Below, piece after piece: positions 3,586 through 36,326 of a DNA stretch of 64,000 nt; the stretch's first letter is position 1; every line of letters begins with the position of its first letter. The notes below the pieces were generated by a model. It worked only from the letters and a program-made list of their open reading frames with translations. It was not told the DNA's origin and did no database searches. The translations under genes and the position numbers were made by a program. Location of the stretch: the NCBI GenBank assembly GCA_001769535.1, contig MEOH01000016.1, positions 308,776 through 372,775 of the forward strand, given 5' to 3'. Source of the DNA: Bacteroidetes bacterium GWF2_38_335 (GTDB taxonomy: Bacteria; Bacteroidota; Bacteroidia; Bacteroidales; GWF2-38-335).

Positions 3586-3750
3586 AACCTCTGGTTTTTA
3601 GAAAAACTGAATATATAAAAGTACAAAAAAAATGTAACTAACTTATATTTAGGAATAAAAATAACATTCAATAGGTCCCTTTTCCATGAATCAATAAAAA
3701 TTATAAATCAACATCCTTTTTAATTATCCTAATAATCAAAAGTTTTTCAA

Positions 3751-4557
3751 TCACATGGTAAAATCAAGAATTGCTTTGATAAACGCATCCTGCTGCTCGG
3801 CGTGCATCCAGTGCCCGGCATCTTTTATGGTTTCTAAATGTGTTGCGGGAAATATTTTTTCTATGAATTCGAAGTCTTCTTTATTAAGATAGCTTGATAG
3901 TTCACCTTTCATGAACAATACAGGAAAGCCGGTAATTCCGGTTTTGCTTTTAATTTCTTCCTCAGAAAATCCTGATAATATTTCTTCCATGTTTTTTGAA
4001 ATGGAGTCAATATTCAATGCCCAGTAAAAATTCCCCTCTCTGGTCCTTTTCAGGTTTTTCAGCAAAAAGTTTGTGAGCCGTTCATCGGGGAACTTTTTGA
4101 ACATGATTTTTTCGGCTTCTTCTCTGCTTTTAAGCGATGCAAGATCCATTTCTGTCATAGCGTTCAAAATGTCACGATGGTGCCCGGCCAGCATATTGAA
4201 ATTCCGGTGTTCACGATAATTTCGCGGTGAGATATCCACAATGATCAGCGCATTGATCTTTTCGGGATATTTCAGGGCAAAGTTCATGGCGGCCTTCCCT
4301 CCCATGGAATGGCCAACAATGATGGCTTTTTCGATACTCTGCTCATCCATGAAATTTTTCAAATCTTCGGCAAGCAGGTCATAGCTGAACTCATCGGAAT
4401 GTGACGACTGACCATGATTTCGCTGGTCGGGAACAAAAACCTCATATTTTTCTCCCAGAATTTTCGCCACTGAATACCAGTTATCCGACGAGCCATACAG
4501 CCCATGCAGTATAATCATGGCCGGACCATTGCCGAATTTTCTGTGGAAGAGGGTCAT
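3751..4557 (-). CDS. Alpha/beta-fold hydrolase (YbfF-type esterase)
   Basis: Cytoplasmic esterase-like hydrolase, 268 residues, typical for the YbfF/epoxide-hydrolase-like branch. The oxyanion-hole HGLYGSS lies at about 18-24, the nucleophile elbow GHSMGG at 82-87 (Ser84), and the catalytic His is probably His249 in DAGHWMH. The acidic member is probably in or near MKGELSS, where family members usually carry Asp or Ser-rich turns. The substrate cannot be read from the sequence. The gene lies just downstream of a degraded toxin remnant and is transcribed towards the giant T9SS gene. Confidence 0.85.
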   Translation of the reverse strand: MTLFHRKFGNGPAMIILHGLYGSSDNWYSVAKILGEKYEVFVPDQRNHGQSSHSDEFSYDLLAEDLKNFMDEQSIEKAIIVGHSMGGKAAMNFALKYPEKINALIIVDISPRNYREHRNFNMLAGHHRDILNAMTEMDLASLKSREEAEKIMFKKFPDERLTNFLLKNLKRTREGNFYWALNIDSISKNMEEILSGFSEEEIKSKTGITGFPVLFMKGELSSYLNKEDFEFIEKIFPATHLETIKDAGHWMHAEQQDAFIKAILDFTM

Positions 4558-4560
4558 GAT

Positions 4561-4863
4561 TTATTTTATTGTTATTGATTCGGGGTTTTGACGACAGTCC
4601 AAAATGGCGTGGACGATAATATTTGTTTCCGCTTTTTTGTTTATAATTATTTTACTTTCATATGGTGTTACTAATACAAAACCATGCTTAATCATCTTGT
4701 TAAATACGTCATTGCGAGACGCTTGCCAAGATTTTTCATTTTGCAAAAGGCTTATGCGGCGAAGCAATCTTCTAATAATGTTGGTAAACTCTATAAGGAG
4801 ATTGCTTCGTTCCTCGCATCCGATAACTATCGGATGACGGTCTTTAAAAGGGATTTCTATCAT
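4561..4863 (-). pseudogene. ParE/RelE-like toxin remnant interrupted by a dispersed repeat
   Basis: A 100-codon reading frame that looks composite. Its last 45 residues or so (from KMIKHGF to the stop) resemble the C-terminus of ParE/RelE-type plasmid-stabilisation toxins, especially the ending IIVHAILDCRQNPESI. The preceding part, complementary to about 4708-4845, is the translation of a non-coding dispersed repeat (LLRRISLLQNEKSWQASRNDV), so the original toxin N-terminus is missing. No antitoxin gene is seen beside it. This is therefore a broken toxin gene rather than a functional ORF. The family assignment rests on a short C-terminal match only. Confidence 0.5.
4708..4845. repeat. Dispersed intergenic repeat with terminal palindrome
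   Basis: The segment begins with gtcattgcgagacgcttgcc and contains the complementary pair gaagcaatctt and agattgcttcg. It ends in a hairpin at 4817-4836 (CATCCGAT, loop AACT, ATCGGATG). Such 'GAAGCAATC...CGTCATTGCGAG' elements recur between genes in Bacteroidota. Here it interrupts a toxin-like reading frame. Confidence 0.6.
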
Positions 4864-4920
4864 TTAAATTACCCGATAATAGTTATTAATTTAAAAATAC
4901 AAATTATTTCAAATGAACAG

Positions 4921-5640
4921 CTAAATTTTTTCCAACAATTTCAAATACATTTGAATAGTATTTTCCAATCCAAAGTACAACGCATCCGAAATCAATGCAT
5001 GGCCGATGGACACTTCATCCAGATGGGGCACCATGTCGTTGAAATACTTCAGATTTTCCAGACTCAGGTCGTGACCGGCATTGATGCCCAATCCCACTTC
5101 ATGGGCTTTTTTGGCAGCACCAATAAAAGGTGCCACCGCTTTCAACTGGTTAATCGGATATTCGGCAGCATAGGGCTCGGTGTATAGTTCAACACGGTCG
5201 GTGCCGGTGAGGGAGGCGTTTTCAATGTTTTTTAAATTGGTATCAATAAATATGGAAGTACGGACGCCTGCGTTCTTGAATTCTTTGATCACATCAATGA
5301 GAAAATCCTTGTTGGCAATGGTATCCCAGCCGGCGTTTGAGGTGAGTGCCTCGGGCGGATCGGGAACCAGTGTTACCTGATGAGGTTTAACATCCAACAC
5401 CAAATCCAAAAATTTCCTGTTTGGATAACCTTCAATATTAAACTCAGTTGTGATTTTGGGGCGGATTTCATACACATCGCTGTAGCGGATGTGGCGTTCA
5501 TCCGGACGGGGATGCACTGTGATTCCGTGGGCTCCGAAGCGTTCGCAGTCAATAGCTGCTTGTAAAACATTCGGAATATTTCCGCCTCTTGCATTACGTA
5601 TTGTTGCAATTTTATTTATATTTACCGATAATCTGGTCAT
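4921..5640 (-). CDS. pdxJ: Pyridoxine 5'-phosphate synthase PdxJ
   Basis: Catalyses the ring-closing condensation of 1-deoxy-D-xylulose 5-phosphate with 3-amino-2-oxopropyl phosphate to pyridoxine 5'-phosphate, the last committed step of DXP-dependent vitamin B6 synthesis; cytosolic TIM barrel. At 239 residues it has the normal family length. The family start [17 protein letters not shown], the segment HPRPDERHI and the C-terminal phosphate-binding stretch [13 protein letters not shown] are all present. It is divergent from the CBS/ACT gene, with only 36 bp between the starts; a TATATTTG -7 box sits in that gap on this strand. Confidence 0.95.
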
Positions 5641-5660
5641 AACTGATTGATTTAAGATTG

Positions 5661-5668
5661 CAAATATA
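5661..5668 (-). promoter_or_regulatory. -7 box of pdxJ promoter
   Basis: On the minus strand the sequence reads TATATTTG, matching the Bacteroidota TAnnTTTG consensus, 20 bp before the pdxJ ATG. The transcript leader would be very short. Confidence 0.55.
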
Positions 5669-5676
5669 TAAAATTT

Positions 5677-6342
5677 ATGCTGGCAAAAGATTTAATTTCA
5701 GATGTTGTTCCCGCAATACGCACAAGCGATAAAGGAAAAGATGCCCTCCACTGGATGGAGATTTTCAAGGTATCGCACCTGCCCATTGTCAATGAAAAAG
5801 AGTTGCTCGGACTGATTTCCGAAAACGACATATACGATTTGAACAAACCCAACACGCCCATAGGTAATCACAAACTGAACCTGATAAACCCCTTTGTTTA
5901 TGATGAACAACATGTCTATGAGGTCATTGAAATGGTTTCGCGGTTAAAGATTACCGTCATTCCTGTTCTTGACAAAAAGAACAATTACCTTGGGGTTATC
6001 ATTTTGCAGGATTTACTTCAATGTTTTGCCAAAATCACTGCTGTCGAAAACCGAGGCGGAATCATTGTTCTGGAGATGAACATTACCGATTATTCCCTGT
6101 CCGAAATTTCCCAGATCGTTGAAAGCAACGGAGCAAAGATTGTCAGTTTATACATTTCCACACCTGTTGATTCCTATAAAATGTTTGTCACCATCAAGGT
6201 CAACACCATGGACATCAACTCCATTCTTAAAACATTAGAACGGTACAATTATAACATTTCAGCCACATTTTCAGAAAACGATGAGATGGGCGATTTTTAT
6301 CAGAAACGGTTGGATTCTTTGTTGAATTTTTTGAATATTTGA
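5677..6342 (+). CDS. CBS-pair / ACT-like domain protein
   Basis: Cytosolic 221-residue protein. Two CBS motifs occupy about residues 1-60 ([20 protein letters not shown]) and 70-125 ([21 protein letters not shown]). A C-terminal ACT-like regulatory fold spans about 130-205 ([20 protein letters not shown]). CBS pairs generally bind adenosyl nucleotides and ACT domains bind small metabolites, so a ligand-sensing role is inferred, but no effector domain is attached. It is transcribed divergently from pdxJ. No clear ribosome binding site is seen before the ATG. Confidence 0.8.
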
Positions 6343-6393
6343 TAAATAGTATGTCTTGAGTTGAATTGAAACCAGAAACAAAATCCGACCCTA

Positions 6394-6741
6394 TCATAAT
6401 CTATCTATAGAAAGTACCTTTGACAGTGCTTCTTTAATTTCTTCAATATTCTCAAAACTAATCTTACCAACTTTTTTCACAAATCTTTCTTCAGATAATG
6501 ATCGTACCTGAAAACAATCAGCAGCAGATATTTTGACAAGGTTGTTATTGTTATCAGGTAAAATTTTTACCATCCAGGGGGCTATTTCATAGTTAAACTT
6601 CCAATCGGTAAGAGGTACAATAACTTTTAAAGGTAATTTTCCAAGAGAATCATCATTTACAATTACAGCTGGCCTTGTCTTTTTGATTTCAGCTCCGACT
6701 GTTGGATCCAGACAAATCAGCCAAATTTCACCTTGTTTCAT
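6394..6741 (-). CDS. MazF/PemK-family endoribonuclease toxin
   Basis: Type II toxin, predicted to be a sequence-specific mRNA interferase of the CcdB/PemK fold, 115 residues from the chosen ATG. Family features visible are the N-terminal KQGEIWLICLDPTVG, KTRPAVIVNDD, a strand VIVPLTDW, and the C-terminal helix. The start at 6741 is preferred over an in-frame ATG 18 bp upstream because MKQGEIW is the family N-terminus and it overlaps the antitoxin stop by 14 bp, the usual translational coupling. The antitoxin gene lies directly upstream. Confidence 0.85.
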   Translation of the reverse strand: MKQGEIWLICLDPTVGAEIKKTRPAVIVNDDSLGKLPLKVIVPLTDWKFNYEIAPWMVKILPDNNNNLVKISAADCFQVRSLSEERFVKKVGKISFENIEEIKEALSKVLSIDRL

Positions 6742-28884: not shown

Positions 28885-29844
28885 ATGAAAAACTATCTTG
28901 CAATACTCGCACTAACCTGCACACTTTCAATTTTTTCACAAAACCATGCACTGGTAATTCACGGAGGAGCAGGAAACTTCACAAAAGAGGATATTGGTTC
29001 TGAAAAAGAAAAGGAATACACAGCCAAATTAAATGAAGCTCTGAATGTGGGTGACAGCATTCTGAAAAACGGCGGCACTGCTCTCGAAGCTGTTGAAAAA
29101 GTGATCATGATTATGGAAGATTCTCCCCTGTTCAATGCCGGAAAAGGTGCTGTTTTTACCAGCAAGGGAACCAATGAACTCGACGCTTCAATTATGGATG
29201 GAAAAACCCTTAAAGCCGGAGCTGTAGCCGGAGTCGGAGATATTAAAAATCCCATTTGCGCTGCCAAAGAAGTGATGCTCAACTCAGAGCACGTATTGCT
29301 TACCGGTAAAGGAGCTTCAGAGTTTGCAAAAAAACAGTGACTGGAAATTGTTGATTCATCATACTTTTTCACACAGGAGCGCTGGGATTCCTATTTGAAA
29401 ATAAAAAACAAAGAAAAAGAACTTGACAAAAAAGGCACCGTAGGTTGTGTTGCACTGGACAAAAACGGGAATTTAGCAGCCGGAACCTCAACAGGCGGGA
29501 TGACCAATAAAAAATACGGGCGAGTGGGCGATTCACCCATCATCGGAGCCGGCACTTATGCTGACAACCAGTCATGCGGTGTTTCCTGCACAGGACATGG
29601 CGAATACTTCATAAGGTATGCAGTGGCTTTTGACATCAACGCACTGATGAAATACAAAAACATGAGTCTGAAAGACGCAGCCGCTGAAGTAGTCAGCAAC
29701 AAACTGGTAAAAGCCGGCGGAGAAGGCGGAATAATTGCCATTGACAAGAACGGAAATGTGGTGATGGAATTCAACACCACCGGGATGTTCAGAGGATATG
29801 TGGACATGAATGGCAAAAAGGAAATTTTATTATTTAAAAAATAG
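28885..29844 (+). pseudogene. Isoaspartyl peptidase/L-asparaginase with in-frame TGA
   Basis: An Ntn-hydrolase of the plant-type asparaginase family, 319 codons including one internal TGA. A signal peptide (1-18) suggests export; family N-terminus ALVIHGGAGNF follows. Codon 152 (29338-29340) is TGA; on both sides the frame and the family similarity continue (EFAKKQ, stop, LEIVDSSYFFTQERW). The nucleophile Thr185 in KKGTVGCVALD, which self-cleaves in this family, lies after the stop, so the truncated product would be inactive. Relatives usually have Gly here, so a single GGA to TGA change explains it. Either a recent nonsense mutation, a sequencing error or readthrough. Confidence 0.8.
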
Positions 29845-32277: not shown

Positions 32278-34506
32278 CTAATTCTCTAAAATCAGTTTAA
32301 AAGTTTCAGTTTTCCCGTTTATTTTTGCTTTCATAAAATATAGTCCGGGATGCTGCCCCGAAAGATCAATCAATTGGTCTGTCATGGAAATTTTCTTAGT
32401 CAGCACAACTTTTCCAACCACATCATAAACCACTATGTCGCAGTTTTCCGGACTGGTATAGAATATCCCGCTTGAAGGATTTGGATATACTTTAAAACGG
32501 TTTGCTGTACTTCCTTCAACGCCGGTAGTGTTGGTAGAAATAACTATATCATCAACCAGCAGCATAAATTTATCAGCAGAGACATGATGAATGGCCACAT
32601 GAATATCCATTCCGTTGTAGGCAGCCAGACTGTATGTATGTTTTGTCCAGGCTGAGGGTGCTTCAACAGCCGAAGAACCTGAAATAACTGTAAAACTTGA
32701 AGGAGTTGTATTTGTGGTTGAAACCTCAACTTTATAAGTATCATTGCCCCAACTGCTTGGCTTTGGACTTCGAACCCACAATGAAATGGAAGAAGATGTG
32801 CCCATGTGAAGCTTTGGAGAAATAATATAATCGTTTGATGCAGAAGCATCTGCCGGACAAACAGATAATCCGCAACGTGACCCGCCATGTGCTCCGGACA
32901 GACTAAATCCGGCCACGGTAGGATTAAATGCGATAAAAGACATAGGGCCGTTTTCACCGGTAAAATCACAGTCACTACTACCATAGGTTGCCAAGCCGTC
33001 AACATCGACATTTGACCAGGGTGAGAAGTCCGCAGAAAAATCAGTACATCCTTCAAAATCAAGTGTAAAACCGGCAGATTCAGACATTACAGAAATATAA
33101 CCGGTTTTGGTTTCGGTATTTGACCCGGTTGAAGCGGTTATTGTGAGTGTAACATTATAAGTGCCTTCTGCATTGTAGGTAATTGCCGGGGGATAATGTC
33201 CGCTATAACTTGATGGTGTTCCGCCCGGAAATGACCAAGCCCATGAAGTGATGGTTCCTCCTCCAGAGTTTGAATTATCTGTAAAATTTACTTGTCCGCC
33301 TTCGAGAACTGAAGTCACATCAGCAGAAAAATTAGCATCAAGGATATTTTCAGGAACAATGCCGAATACAGCTTCCTGATTAAATGAATAATCACCCGTT
33401 CCGCCTCCTGTACCTGTGCCGCCCGGCACCAAATCGTCAATATAATTGTATGAATTATAATAGCCATCCCATCCCCAGTTAAAATGGAAATAATCAGTTC
33501 CCTGAAAGCCATCACACACAAAGGCATGTCCTGAAGAGCCAGCCTCGTCTGTTCCAGAATAGTAAACAGGGCGACCAGCATTGAGGTCAGTTGTAATATA
33601 CCCTTTCCAGGTTGCATCAGCATAAGAATATCTTGCCCGGTAAGTAACTGAAGTGGCATATTTAAAATTGTTTTCAAAAGCATTGTCAACCACCGAAGAA
33701 TATGCTCCCGATCCGGAAGCTGAATATCCCATCTCAACAGAAACCCCGGCATGATAACAAAGTGTTGCTACTGATGTATTATAGGTTGTGAGATAATTTG
33801 GCATTGCTGCCCAGTTGTATGTGGTGGCAGCAAAATCTGCTGAAAGTGTTCCATAAGACGAACTGTAGCTGTTTGAACCTTCGCCCGACGAGGGATGCTC
33901 CCAAAACTTCATTATTTGCGACATGGCAGTGGCTACACAGCCAACCGGACAATGGTTACATGTGCTGGTAGCAGAGGCATCAGAGGGACAACTATTGTTG
34001 TAGTAGCAACCCTGGCCCCATTCAATGGATGAAGTAAGCGGAGAAACATCGGTAATATCTTTTGAAGGAGAAAAATCATCAGCTGCATAACGCATCCATT
34101 TTGAATATACCTCAGGAGAAGCTTCAATTTTCAAGGTTTTAATATCCACAATCTGATGTTGGTAGTATTCAAGCCAGTCAAGGAAAGCTTCAGGTTTGCT
34201 GTCATTCTCAAGAAAAGCCCCTTTAAATGCGTAACATAAAACAGGTTCTGCTGCATCATCAGCAGAAACAACTACAAAACCCTTTTTATCACCAATATTA
34301 TAAACATGTAGTGTTTGCAATCCATCAAACATTAAAGGAATATAAGAAGAAACGGTAATTTCCTCAATTGGAATTTTCATTTCAAGTGATGCTTTTTCAA
34401 AATAAAAATTCAATGCCACTTTGCGGGCGGATTTTTCAGGAACATCTTTTCCAAAACCAACAGCAAAACATAGCAGGAACAGGATAAGCAGAGAGGTTGT
34501 CTTCAT
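32278..34506 (-). CDS. T9SS-secreted C10 (streptopain-like) cysteine protease
   Basis: Secreted 742-residue protease. In order: signal peptide (1-19), a Spi-type propeptide (about 20-150, KVALNFYFEKAS, KGFVVVSADDAAEPVL), the C10 catalytic domain (about 155-390), a PKD domain (about 395-470), a MAM/choice-of-anchor-like domain (about 485-655), and a T9SS sorting domain (KVYPNPSSGIFYT to the end). The catalytic pair is present: Cys190 in GCVATAMSQIM and His327 in SGHAFVCDGF, followed by FHFNWGWDG. It would digest proteins outside the cell. The next gene upstream is divergent. Confidence 0.92.
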   Translation of the reverse strand: MKTTSLLILFLLCFAVGFGKDVPEKSARKVALNFYFEKASLEMKIPIEEITVSSYIPLMFDGLQTLHVYNIGDKKGFVVVSADDAAEPVLCYAFKGAFLENDSKPEAFLDWLEYYQHQIVDIKTLKIEASPEVYSKWMRYAADDFSPSKDITDVSPLTSSIEWGQGCYYNNSCPSDASATSTCNHCPVGCVATAMSQIMKFWEHPSSGEGSNSYSSSYGTLSADFAATTYNWAAMPNYLTTYNTSVATLCYHAGVSVEMGYSASGSGAYSSVVDNAFENNFKYATSVTYRARYSYADATWKGYITTDLNAGRPVYYSGTDEAGSSGHAFVCDGFQGTDYFHFNWGWDGYYNSYNYIDDLVPGGTGTGGGTGDYSFNQEAVFGIVPENILDANFSADVTSVLEGGQVNFTDNSNSGGGTITSWAWSFPGGTPSSYSGHYPPAITYNAEGTYNVTLTITASTGSNTETKTGYISVMSESAGFTLDFEGCTDFSADFSPWSNVDVDGLATYGSSDCDFTGENGPMSFIAFNPTVAGFSLSGAHGGSRCGLSVCPADASASNDYIISPKLHMGTSSSISLWVRSPKPSSWGNDTYKVEVSTTNTTPSSFTVISGSSAVEAPSAWTKHTYSLAAYNGMDIHVAIHHVSADKFMLLVDDIVISTNTTGVEGSTANRFKVYPNPSSGIFYTSPENCDIVVYDVVGKVVLTKKISMTDQLIDLSGQHPGLYFMKAKINGKTETFKLILEN

Positions 34507-34718: not shown

Positions 34719-36326
34719 ATGAAAAAATCAAAGCAATTCTTACTCCTCTTAACCCTTCTGCTTCCAGGCATTATTACAGCTCAGGTAGCCCGTCAGTCAG
34801 TTCTAATGGAAGTCTCATCGGGAACCTGGTGAAGCGGCTGCCCGGCCCTGCACATGATCATTGAAGATTTTGAAAATGCGGGTCACGATTTTGCCTACGC
34901 TGAATATCACGGAAGTGATGACTATGCTACTACCGAATCTGAAAACAGACTTACCTGGTACAATTGCGAATATTATCCTGAAACATGGATTGATGGTCAG
35001 CAAATCCCTATAGACAATTTTGCAGATGCTGCTATGATGCTTGACTGGTACAACACCAGAATGGCAACTCCAAGTAATTTCAGCATTGGTGTTTCCCAAA
35101 CACATGTTGGTCTGGATTACTCAGCAACTATAACACTAACTAAAGAAGCTGATTTTACTAATACAAACCTTGTATTGCGGGTGGTTCTTGTTGAATCGCA
35201 TATTCCTGAAGCATGGCAGACTCTTGATGAACTCAACTATGTTGCCAGAGATATGATTCCTGATGAAAATGGAACTACAGTTTCCTTTGCCGGCGGAGAT
35301 ATACAAACATTTAATTTCGATTTTACTATGAATGCAGGATGGGATAAGGACAACAGTCAACTCATCGCTTTTCTGCAAGATGAAGACACCAAAGAAGTTC
35401 TGCAAACAGAAGTAGTCACTTTAGCATCACCTGATTACACCACAGATGCTCAGCTTTTTTCCATCATCTCCCCTTCAGGTAATTTCTGTGGCGAGTCTTT
35501 GATTCCCGAAATCAGAATTAAAAATAAAGGTGCCGATAATCTGACCAGCCTGGATATCAGCTACTCCATAAACGGTGGAACTGTAGAAAATTACAGCTGG
35601 ACTGGTGATCTTCCATTTAATTCTGTCGAGACTGTTGTTTTACCTGCCATTGTTTTTACTTCAACCTTAGATAACACCATTACTGTAACTTGCTCAAATC
35701 CAAATGGCATCAGTGATGAAAATGCAGCAAACAATGAAGTTACCGGCAGTTTCCAGGTTCTTTCTTATTTAACCGAAACACTTACCTTTGAATTACTAAC
35801 CGATGCTTACGGCTCAGAGTCCTCATGGGAATTCAGAAATTCAACCGGAACAGTTATTGCATCAGGAACCGGATATGCAAGCAACACTTATTATACTGAG
35901 GACATTACCGTTCCGGCCAACGGATGCTACATTTTCGCCATGCTCGATTCGTATGGTGATGGCATCTATGATCCCAGCTATTACAGATTAAAAGATCAGG
36001 CAGGAAACATCATTGTTGAAGGCGGCGTGGATGTTGGAAGCGAAGAACTGACCAATTTCTATGTGGATATCAATGTTTCGGTTAAAGAAAACCAAAACAG
36101 CAATATTGGTGTATATCCCGTTCCCTCATCGGGCATTATCAACATTAATCATGTAGGTTGTGACCAAATGACCATTTACAATGCTATTGGATCTGTGATA
36201 TACAATAGGATGACAGAAAATGGAATCACCACCATTGACCTTTCAGCATATCCCGAAGGAACTTATCTGTTAAAAATAGAAATGACCGACAAGGTTGTAA
36301 CCAAGAAAATTCTGATTACCAGATAA
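34719..36326 (+). CDS. Omp28-like thioredoxin-fold T9SS protein with TGA in CxxC
   Basis: 535 codons from an ATG with signal peptide (1-21, ending TAQ). Residues 25-45 read VARQSVLMEVSSGTW, then an in-frame TGA (codon 38, 34830-34832), then SGCPALHM. Omp28-type proteins have CxxC there (GTWCxxCP), so TGA stands where the first Cys belongs, giving UxxC if read as selenocysteine. The thioredoxin-like domain (about 26-165), a second beta-rich region and a T9SS sorting domain (GVYPVPSSGIININ to the end) are otherwise intact. A methionine after the TGA (34854) opens a frame lacking signal peptide and redox site. I see no convincing SECIS hairpin by eye. Alternatives: nonsense mutation or sequencing error. 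Confidence 0.7.

Follow-up and report, generated by a model that had tools for sequence, protein, structure and literature searches.

An Omp28-type gene with an in-frame UGA

The window analyzed here, a 64,000-nucleotide stretch of the Bacteroidetes bacterium GWF2_38_335 genome, carries on its forward strand a long reading frame (34719-36326) with a single internal TGA. Read directly, the frame opens with an ATG at 34719, passes through a hydrophobic leader and VARQSVLMEVSSGTW to the TGA at 34830-34832, resumes with SGCPAL and ends in a TAA at 36324-36326. The first-pass annotation had described the same course, from a signal peptide through GTW, TGA and SGCP to a type IX secretion system (T9SS) domain, and had placed it correctly. 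The GTW-UGA-SGCP block is followed by 497 open codons. Stops occupy 2 of the 536 codons in this frame, namely the TGA and the terminator, as opposed to 26-43 in each of the other five frames. With the UGA read as selenocysteine (Sec) at codon 38, the product is an Omp28-type protein of 535 residues; the list of open reading frames made with translation table 11 shows an internal start alone (34854-36326, 490 residues).

The encoded protein begins with a putative signal peptide (residues 1-22, 34719-34784), judged by eye and modeled as a helix over residues 2-18. It is followed by a region assigned from Pfam and the structural model to a thioredoxin fold with the Omp28 beta part (residues 23-240, 34785-35438). 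The UGA takes the place of the first cysteine of the thioredoxin CxxC motif, giving UxxC, as seen in both the sequence and the alignment. The codon for the partner cysteine, residue 41 (34839-34841), is invariant in 25 aligned proteins, which were chosen by the motif itself. Pfam detects Omp28 (PF11551, E = 3.4e-14; 53.5 bits, above the gathering cut-off of 34.9) and Por_Secre_tail (PF18962, E = 4.1e-11). A CARDB-like beta sandwich at residues 237-350 (35427-35768) is suggested by fold comparison only (3idu_B, Z 11.0). The C-terminal T9SS type A sorting domain (residues 465-533, 36111-36317) is identified by Pfam, by TIGR04183 (42.6 bits, above the cut-off of 23) and by a fold match to 8gl6_D (Z 10.0). 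Sorting domains of this kind also occur in two neighbors within the window, and the tail has matches elsewhere in the genome.

A predicted hairpin downstream of the UGA

In bacterial SECIS elements, the apical loop lies 16-37 nt from the UGA and carries a guanosine near its start. A figure legend in the Global Ocean Sampling study likewise names a conserved loop G (PMC2398784). Folding of the RNA past the window UGA predicts a SECIS-like hairpin at 34844-34884, with the loop AUUGAA (34860-34865) 27 nt past the UGA and its G at the fourth place; the loops of sister genes, AAUGGGA, have G at the same place. We compared the stability of the 48 nt past the codon with that of 1000 synonymous shuffles. 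The 18 UGA-containing Omp28-type genes described below have a mean z of −1.71, as opposed to 0.00 for 13 cysteine homologs (Mann-Whitney p = 9e-5, with related rows in the sets, and with one cysteine row, L053 at 4902, of a different CxxC type). By this plain folding, the window gene has a z of about −2.3 (p = 0.018, 0.013 and 0.017 in three runs).

A stricter statistic, which considers a single hairpin with its loop 16-37 nt past the UGA, gives −1.27 for the 18 UGA genes versus −0.33 for 12 cysteine genes (p = 0.003); applied to the window gene by itself, it gives p = 0.079. The chosen loops start 18-27 nt past the UGA in the 18 genes, a range that the test itself partly imposes. An Rfam search around the window UGA returned four matches (E = 0.78-9.4), none of them SECIS. 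Covariation of paired bases in two subfamilies of six and four sequences was weak, each showing one both-sided change that was equaled in 167 shuffles out of 500 for the first and in 43 for the second, so covariation lends the hairpin no support beyond that of stability. Two Zixibacteria paralogs that are otherwise diverged (L068 and L069, CP070839.1) carry an identical hairpin, TGCGGC-AGTT-GCCGCA, past the UGA. Overall, a SECIS-like hairpin is predicted past the window UGA with statistical support that is modest for the window gene alone, which revises the first-pass statement that no convincing hairpin lies 3' of the codon.

Selenocysteine-decoding genes in the source genome

The source genome is a draft of 5.27 Mb in 29 contigs. 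All four genes whose presence the first-pass annotation had proposed to check are found in it, clustered within about 10 kb of contig C22: selC, encoding a tRNA-Sec with anticodon TCA (354932-355024, 58 bits), selA (at 356712, 513 bits), selB (at 358139, 330 bits) and selD (at 363403, 374 bits). The SelB protein covers positions 2-488 of the 581 in TIGR00475 and scores above the cut-off, and the selD frame is free of in-frame TGA. Among these genes sit a class V aminotransferase, which we take to be of the cysteine desulfurase type, and a TusA/DsrE protein, presumably YedF-like. The selA gene itself terminates at UGA. With selA, selB, selC and selD present, the genome is by gene content able to decode UGA as Sec.

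Related genes with UGA at the same codon

We ran a 23-base pattern for GTW-UGA-xxCP on 393 genomes of the order to which the source organism belongs, with the pattern read backwards as the control. It gave nine matches in 6 of the 393 genomes, above the chance level set by the reversed control, which gave two. A longer, stricter pattern run on a collection of 84,980 species matched 17 stretches. In 16 of them the match lies in a long Omp28-type frame; two of these frames belong to one Cloacimonadota genome, two to one Zixibacteria genome and the others to Bacteroidota. The remaining stretch, from Levilactobacillus (L072), is a chance match whose frame closes 12 codons on. Eight of the 16 long frames duplicate genes already found, with identical translations, and genome G053 adds one gene with the variant motif YTT-UGA-PTCP. 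The total is 18 distinct UGA-containing Omp28-type genes in 13 genomes, the source genome included, from Bacteroidota, Cloacimonadota and Zixibacteria; one genome (G178) holds four of them.

Our alignment comprises 25 proteins (15 with UGA and 10 with Cys) selected by the motif GTW[C/UGA]xxCP, with some rows cut by the ends of their loci. Pfam finds Omp28 in all 25 and a sorting domain in 20. Three UGA proteins outside the alignment (L052, L075 and L078) match NF045500 and a sorting domain, and no sorting domain was found in L068, the sole Zixibacteria protein scanned singly. The homologs have Cys or UGA at codon 38, a point that the first-pass annotation had proposed to check, the sole exception being a Met in L023, read by eye. 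This protein, from G053, is the closest homolog of the window protein (43%), so the residue is dispensable in some relatives. On the same contig as L023 (C97), L052 has a UGA at its own UxxC. Close relatives were not found to be truncated at this codon as well, an outcome that the first-pass annotation had named as one that would speak against a selenoprotein. At two loci, a UGA-form Omp28 gene is followed at a short distance by a Cys-form one, making a tandem Sec/Cys pair (L065, 1874 and 3595-5259; L076, 3189 and 4911-6572). On a tree of 30 domains, the distribution of the UGA label requires at least four changes, of which the well-supported branches force only one, and it fits one or several origins.

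The distribution of these genes follows that of the Sec-decoding machinery. Within the order, selA is present in 43 of 393 genomes, including all six with the motif and 37 of the 387 others (p = 1.2e-6, for genomes that are not independent, three being of one genus). At the genus level, all four motif genera have selA, compared with 30 of 206 genera overall (p = 3.8e-4). Six further genomes (those that hold loci L064, L067, L068, L073, L074 and L078) and G053 have selA too, so that it occurs in 13 of 13 genomes with UGA-containing Omp28 genes, in each of which ARAGORN also calls a tRNA-Sec. Nine other genomes, namely G001 and eight without selA, were included in the tRNA search: seven of the eight had matches of 42-47 bits, the best of each being a tRNA-Ser according to ARAGORN (that in G008, at 47.2 bits, lies barely above the cut-off), and G003 and G031 had no match. 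Judged by sequence, the homologs with UGA in these other bacteria seem to use the codon in the same way as the window gene.

Other in-frame UGA codons

The first-pass annotation had noted another gene in the window with an internal TGA, and there is one, at 29338-29340 of an Asparaginase_2 gene (28885-29844, forward strand). Lying outside the system, it serves as an internal control. No stable hairpin was found behind this TGA (z = +0.55, p = 0.68), which falls outside any redox motif, and the codon is likely a true nonsense codon or an assembly error.

A search of the source genome with AhpC-TSA gave 22 matches, one of which has an in-frame TGA. This gene reads FFGTY-UGA-TSC and is followed by a 7-bp hairpin, GCCAUUG-CAA-CAAUGGC (z = −1.88, p = 0.047; second run, z = −1.67, p = 0.063). 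It also encodes a T9SS sorting domain (47.6 bits versus a cut-off of 23). Its redoxin domain, searched in the 43 selA-containing genomes and G001, gave 99 matches, 30 of them with one TGA and three of these in the source genome. In all 14 of the 30 that we examined, the TGA replaces the first Cys of CxxC. The UGA redoxins that we examined have a mean z of −1.25, versus +0.11 for eight Cys forms (p = 0.003; L108, missed by the motif expression, was left out of the folding set), and several taken singly show no hairpin stability (L097, L102, L103 and L107). The three TlpA-like redoxins of the source genome, on contigs C27 and C25 (L094, 1552-3030; L144, 1434-2915; L145, 978-3092), each have TGA as the first Cys of CxxC and leader peptides recognized by eye. 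Together with the window gene, they bring the candidate exported selenoproteins of the source genome to at least four. Three matches to formate dehydrogenase (FdhA), considered as the Sec user in this genome, are free of in-frame stops. Two UGA redoxin matches (L097 / L146, with L097 the one examined) come from G001, a genome of the same genus, yet neither selA nor a tRNA-Sec was found in it; the assembly is a 3.6-Mb draft, compared with 5.27 Mb for the source genome, and a contig may be missing.

Predicted fold and relationship to known families

An AlphaFold2 model built on the 25 aligned proteins, with Cys in place of Sec, has a pLDDT of 85 and a pTM of 0.52. The model places a strand at residues 28-34, the UxxC motif at 38-41, a helix at 41-53, a strand at 58-64, a helix at 72-80 and a strand at 88-91. 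These elements fit a predicted thioredoxin fold in the N-terminal part, with residue 38 positioned just ahead of the helix 41-53. The best match among solved structures is to HBP35 of Porphyromonas gingivalis (5y1a; Z 25.4, RMSD 2.4 over 220 residues). HBP35 is a Cys protein that contains a thioredoxin domain and is exported as T9SS cargo; the window protein has low identity to it (13%) and different further domains. Other matches are to the P. gingivalis Omp28 domain (2r2c, Z 10.8), to CARDB domains over residues ~237-350 (Z 10-11) and to the T9SS cargo tail of RemA over residues 461-534 (Z 10.0). In a sequence search of the PDB with the window protein, the sorting domain alone was matched.

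The best NCBIfam match of the window protein is NF045500, named Omp28-related selenoprotein, over residues 20-239. Its score of 60.9 bits, like the 40.6-74.6 bits of six other UGA proteins scored singly, lies well below the cut-off of 200, so all seven fall outside this equivalog, and model positions 273-377 are unmatched by the window protein. All 25 aligned proteins, including the 10 with Cys, match NF045500 at an E-value threshold of 0.001, and the match is therefore no marker of a selenoprotein in itself. Table 1 of a 2026 inventory equates NF045500 with GOS_C (PMC13188914), a family of 74 sequences with a Trx-like fold and UxxC that the 2008 Global Ocean Sampling study presents (PMC2398784). 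The UxxC in a thioredoxin-like part is common to this family and the window protein. The Cys forms of Omp28 (PF11551, NF033782 and 2r2c) share the domain and differ in that the window protein has UGA for the first Cys; its NF033782 score is 32.5, below the cut-off of 150. The same Table 1 lists thioredoxin-like, TlpA-like and Prx-like UxxC selenoproteins (PMC13188914), with which the window protein shares UxxC at a thioredoxin-type site while belonging to another family, the Omp28-type. The redoxins of the source genome stand near these tabulated groups.

The first-pass annotation had regarded a secreted T9SS selenoprotein as new. An Omp28-related selenoprotein is already on record in NF045500, and the novelty holds only in part. 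From sequence comparison, the window protein would be a divergent, T9SS-tagged variant of the known Omp28-related selenoprotein. A 2006 survey reports Sec decoding as undetected among Bacteroidetes (PMC1794560). The main text of a 2016 survey has the word Bacteroidetes in a single place, for one genome that holds an orphan SelD (PMC5029168). The 2026 inventory, which covers 119 families or subfamilies of prokaryotic selenoproteins, has in its main text no word starting with "bacteroid" (PMC13188914). A Cloacimonetes-type tRNA-Sec is known (PMC5330540). In searches of openly available journal papers, we found none joining Omp28 with selenoproteins. Judged by title, Omp28 with selenocysteine returned nothing related, selenoprotein with type IX secretion no bacterial case (rabbits only), and extracellular bacterial selenoprotein none. 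The few papers that we looked into on Sec, tRNASec or selenoproteins in Bacteroidetes, Bacteroidota or Bacteroidales contained no description of a Bacteroidota selenoprotein.

Discussion

We propose that the product of the window gene is an exported selenoprotein, with Sec directed to residue 38 by SelB and the hairpin, that leaves the cell through the T9SS and performs redox chemistry outside it, a reading to which we assign a probability of about 93%. SelB carrying Sec-tRNA would bind the hairpin past the UGA and place selenocysteine at this codon. Once complete, the protein would cross the inner membrane by means of its signal peptide, and the C-terminal domain would target it for exit via the T9SS. 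On the outside, the Sec-x-x-Cys site may carry out thiol/selenol redox chemistry, whether disulfide reduction or isomerization or peroxide reduction. The sequence itself shows the UGA at the position of the catalytic Cys, its recurrence, the sel genes and the sorting domain, while the fold is a prediction and the hairpin has statistical support; the decoding in the cell, the export, the reaction and the substrate we infer. The divergently oriented neighbor (32278-34506, reverse strand) encodes a C10 cysteine peptidase that also contains a Spi inhibitor, PKD and Cleaved_Adhesin domains and a T9SS sorting domain; as a guess, the selenoprotein may keep exported thiol enzymes such as this peptidase reduced.

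The first-pass annotation had left the choice between a selenoprotein and a nonsense mutation, and the sel genes, the Cys and UGA homologs and the hairpin, the last with modest strength for this gene alone, favor the selenoprotein. If instead a Cys codon had been turned into a stop by mutation or misread in sequencing, so that the gene is a pseudogene or wrongly recorded, this would be in keeping with a draft assembly of 29 contigs, with the asparaginase gene and its TGA that has no stable hairpin behind it, and with the lack of Cys or Sec at codon 38 in the closest homolog, as judged by eye. Such damage would have to have struck the same codon in 18 genes from 13 genomes, all of which have sel genes, and to have left 497 codons open past the UGA and the RNA behind it unusually stable across the set; we consider it very unlikely. 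Even less credible is that the UGA specifies some amino acid other than Sec, either because a suppressor or near-cognate tRNA reads it or because UGA is recoded more widely in the genome. Readthrough of this kind would rescue the asparaginase gene too, but selA of the same genome terminates at UGA, most long frames in the window need no TGA readthrough, and the recurrence of the codon tracks sel genes and one catalytic Cys.

The table 11 list of open reading frames agrees with another arrangement, in which a short leader product is made along with a separate 490-residue protein from the ATG at 34854. This would cut the GTWxxxCP block and deprive the protein of its signal peptide while keeping its export domain, and we give it almost no weight.

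If the window gene does encode an exported selenoprotein, such proteins would be overlooked, or given a wrong start, wherever genes are called with table 11. Within the order, 43 of 393 genomes carry selA, and UGA-bearing exported redox proteins recur among them. More broadly, Sec-using Bacteroidales may keep a surface selenoproteome, an idea for which we see the balance as even: several T9SS-tagged thioredoxin-fold families, Omp28-type and TlpA-type, would hold Sec at the attacking position, be duplicated within genomes and be exchanged with Cys forms. Selenium chemistry would then take place outside the cell and may be a main reason that Sec decoding is kept in these genomes. With a selenol exposed there, it becomes a testable question which disulfides or oxidants it would meet.
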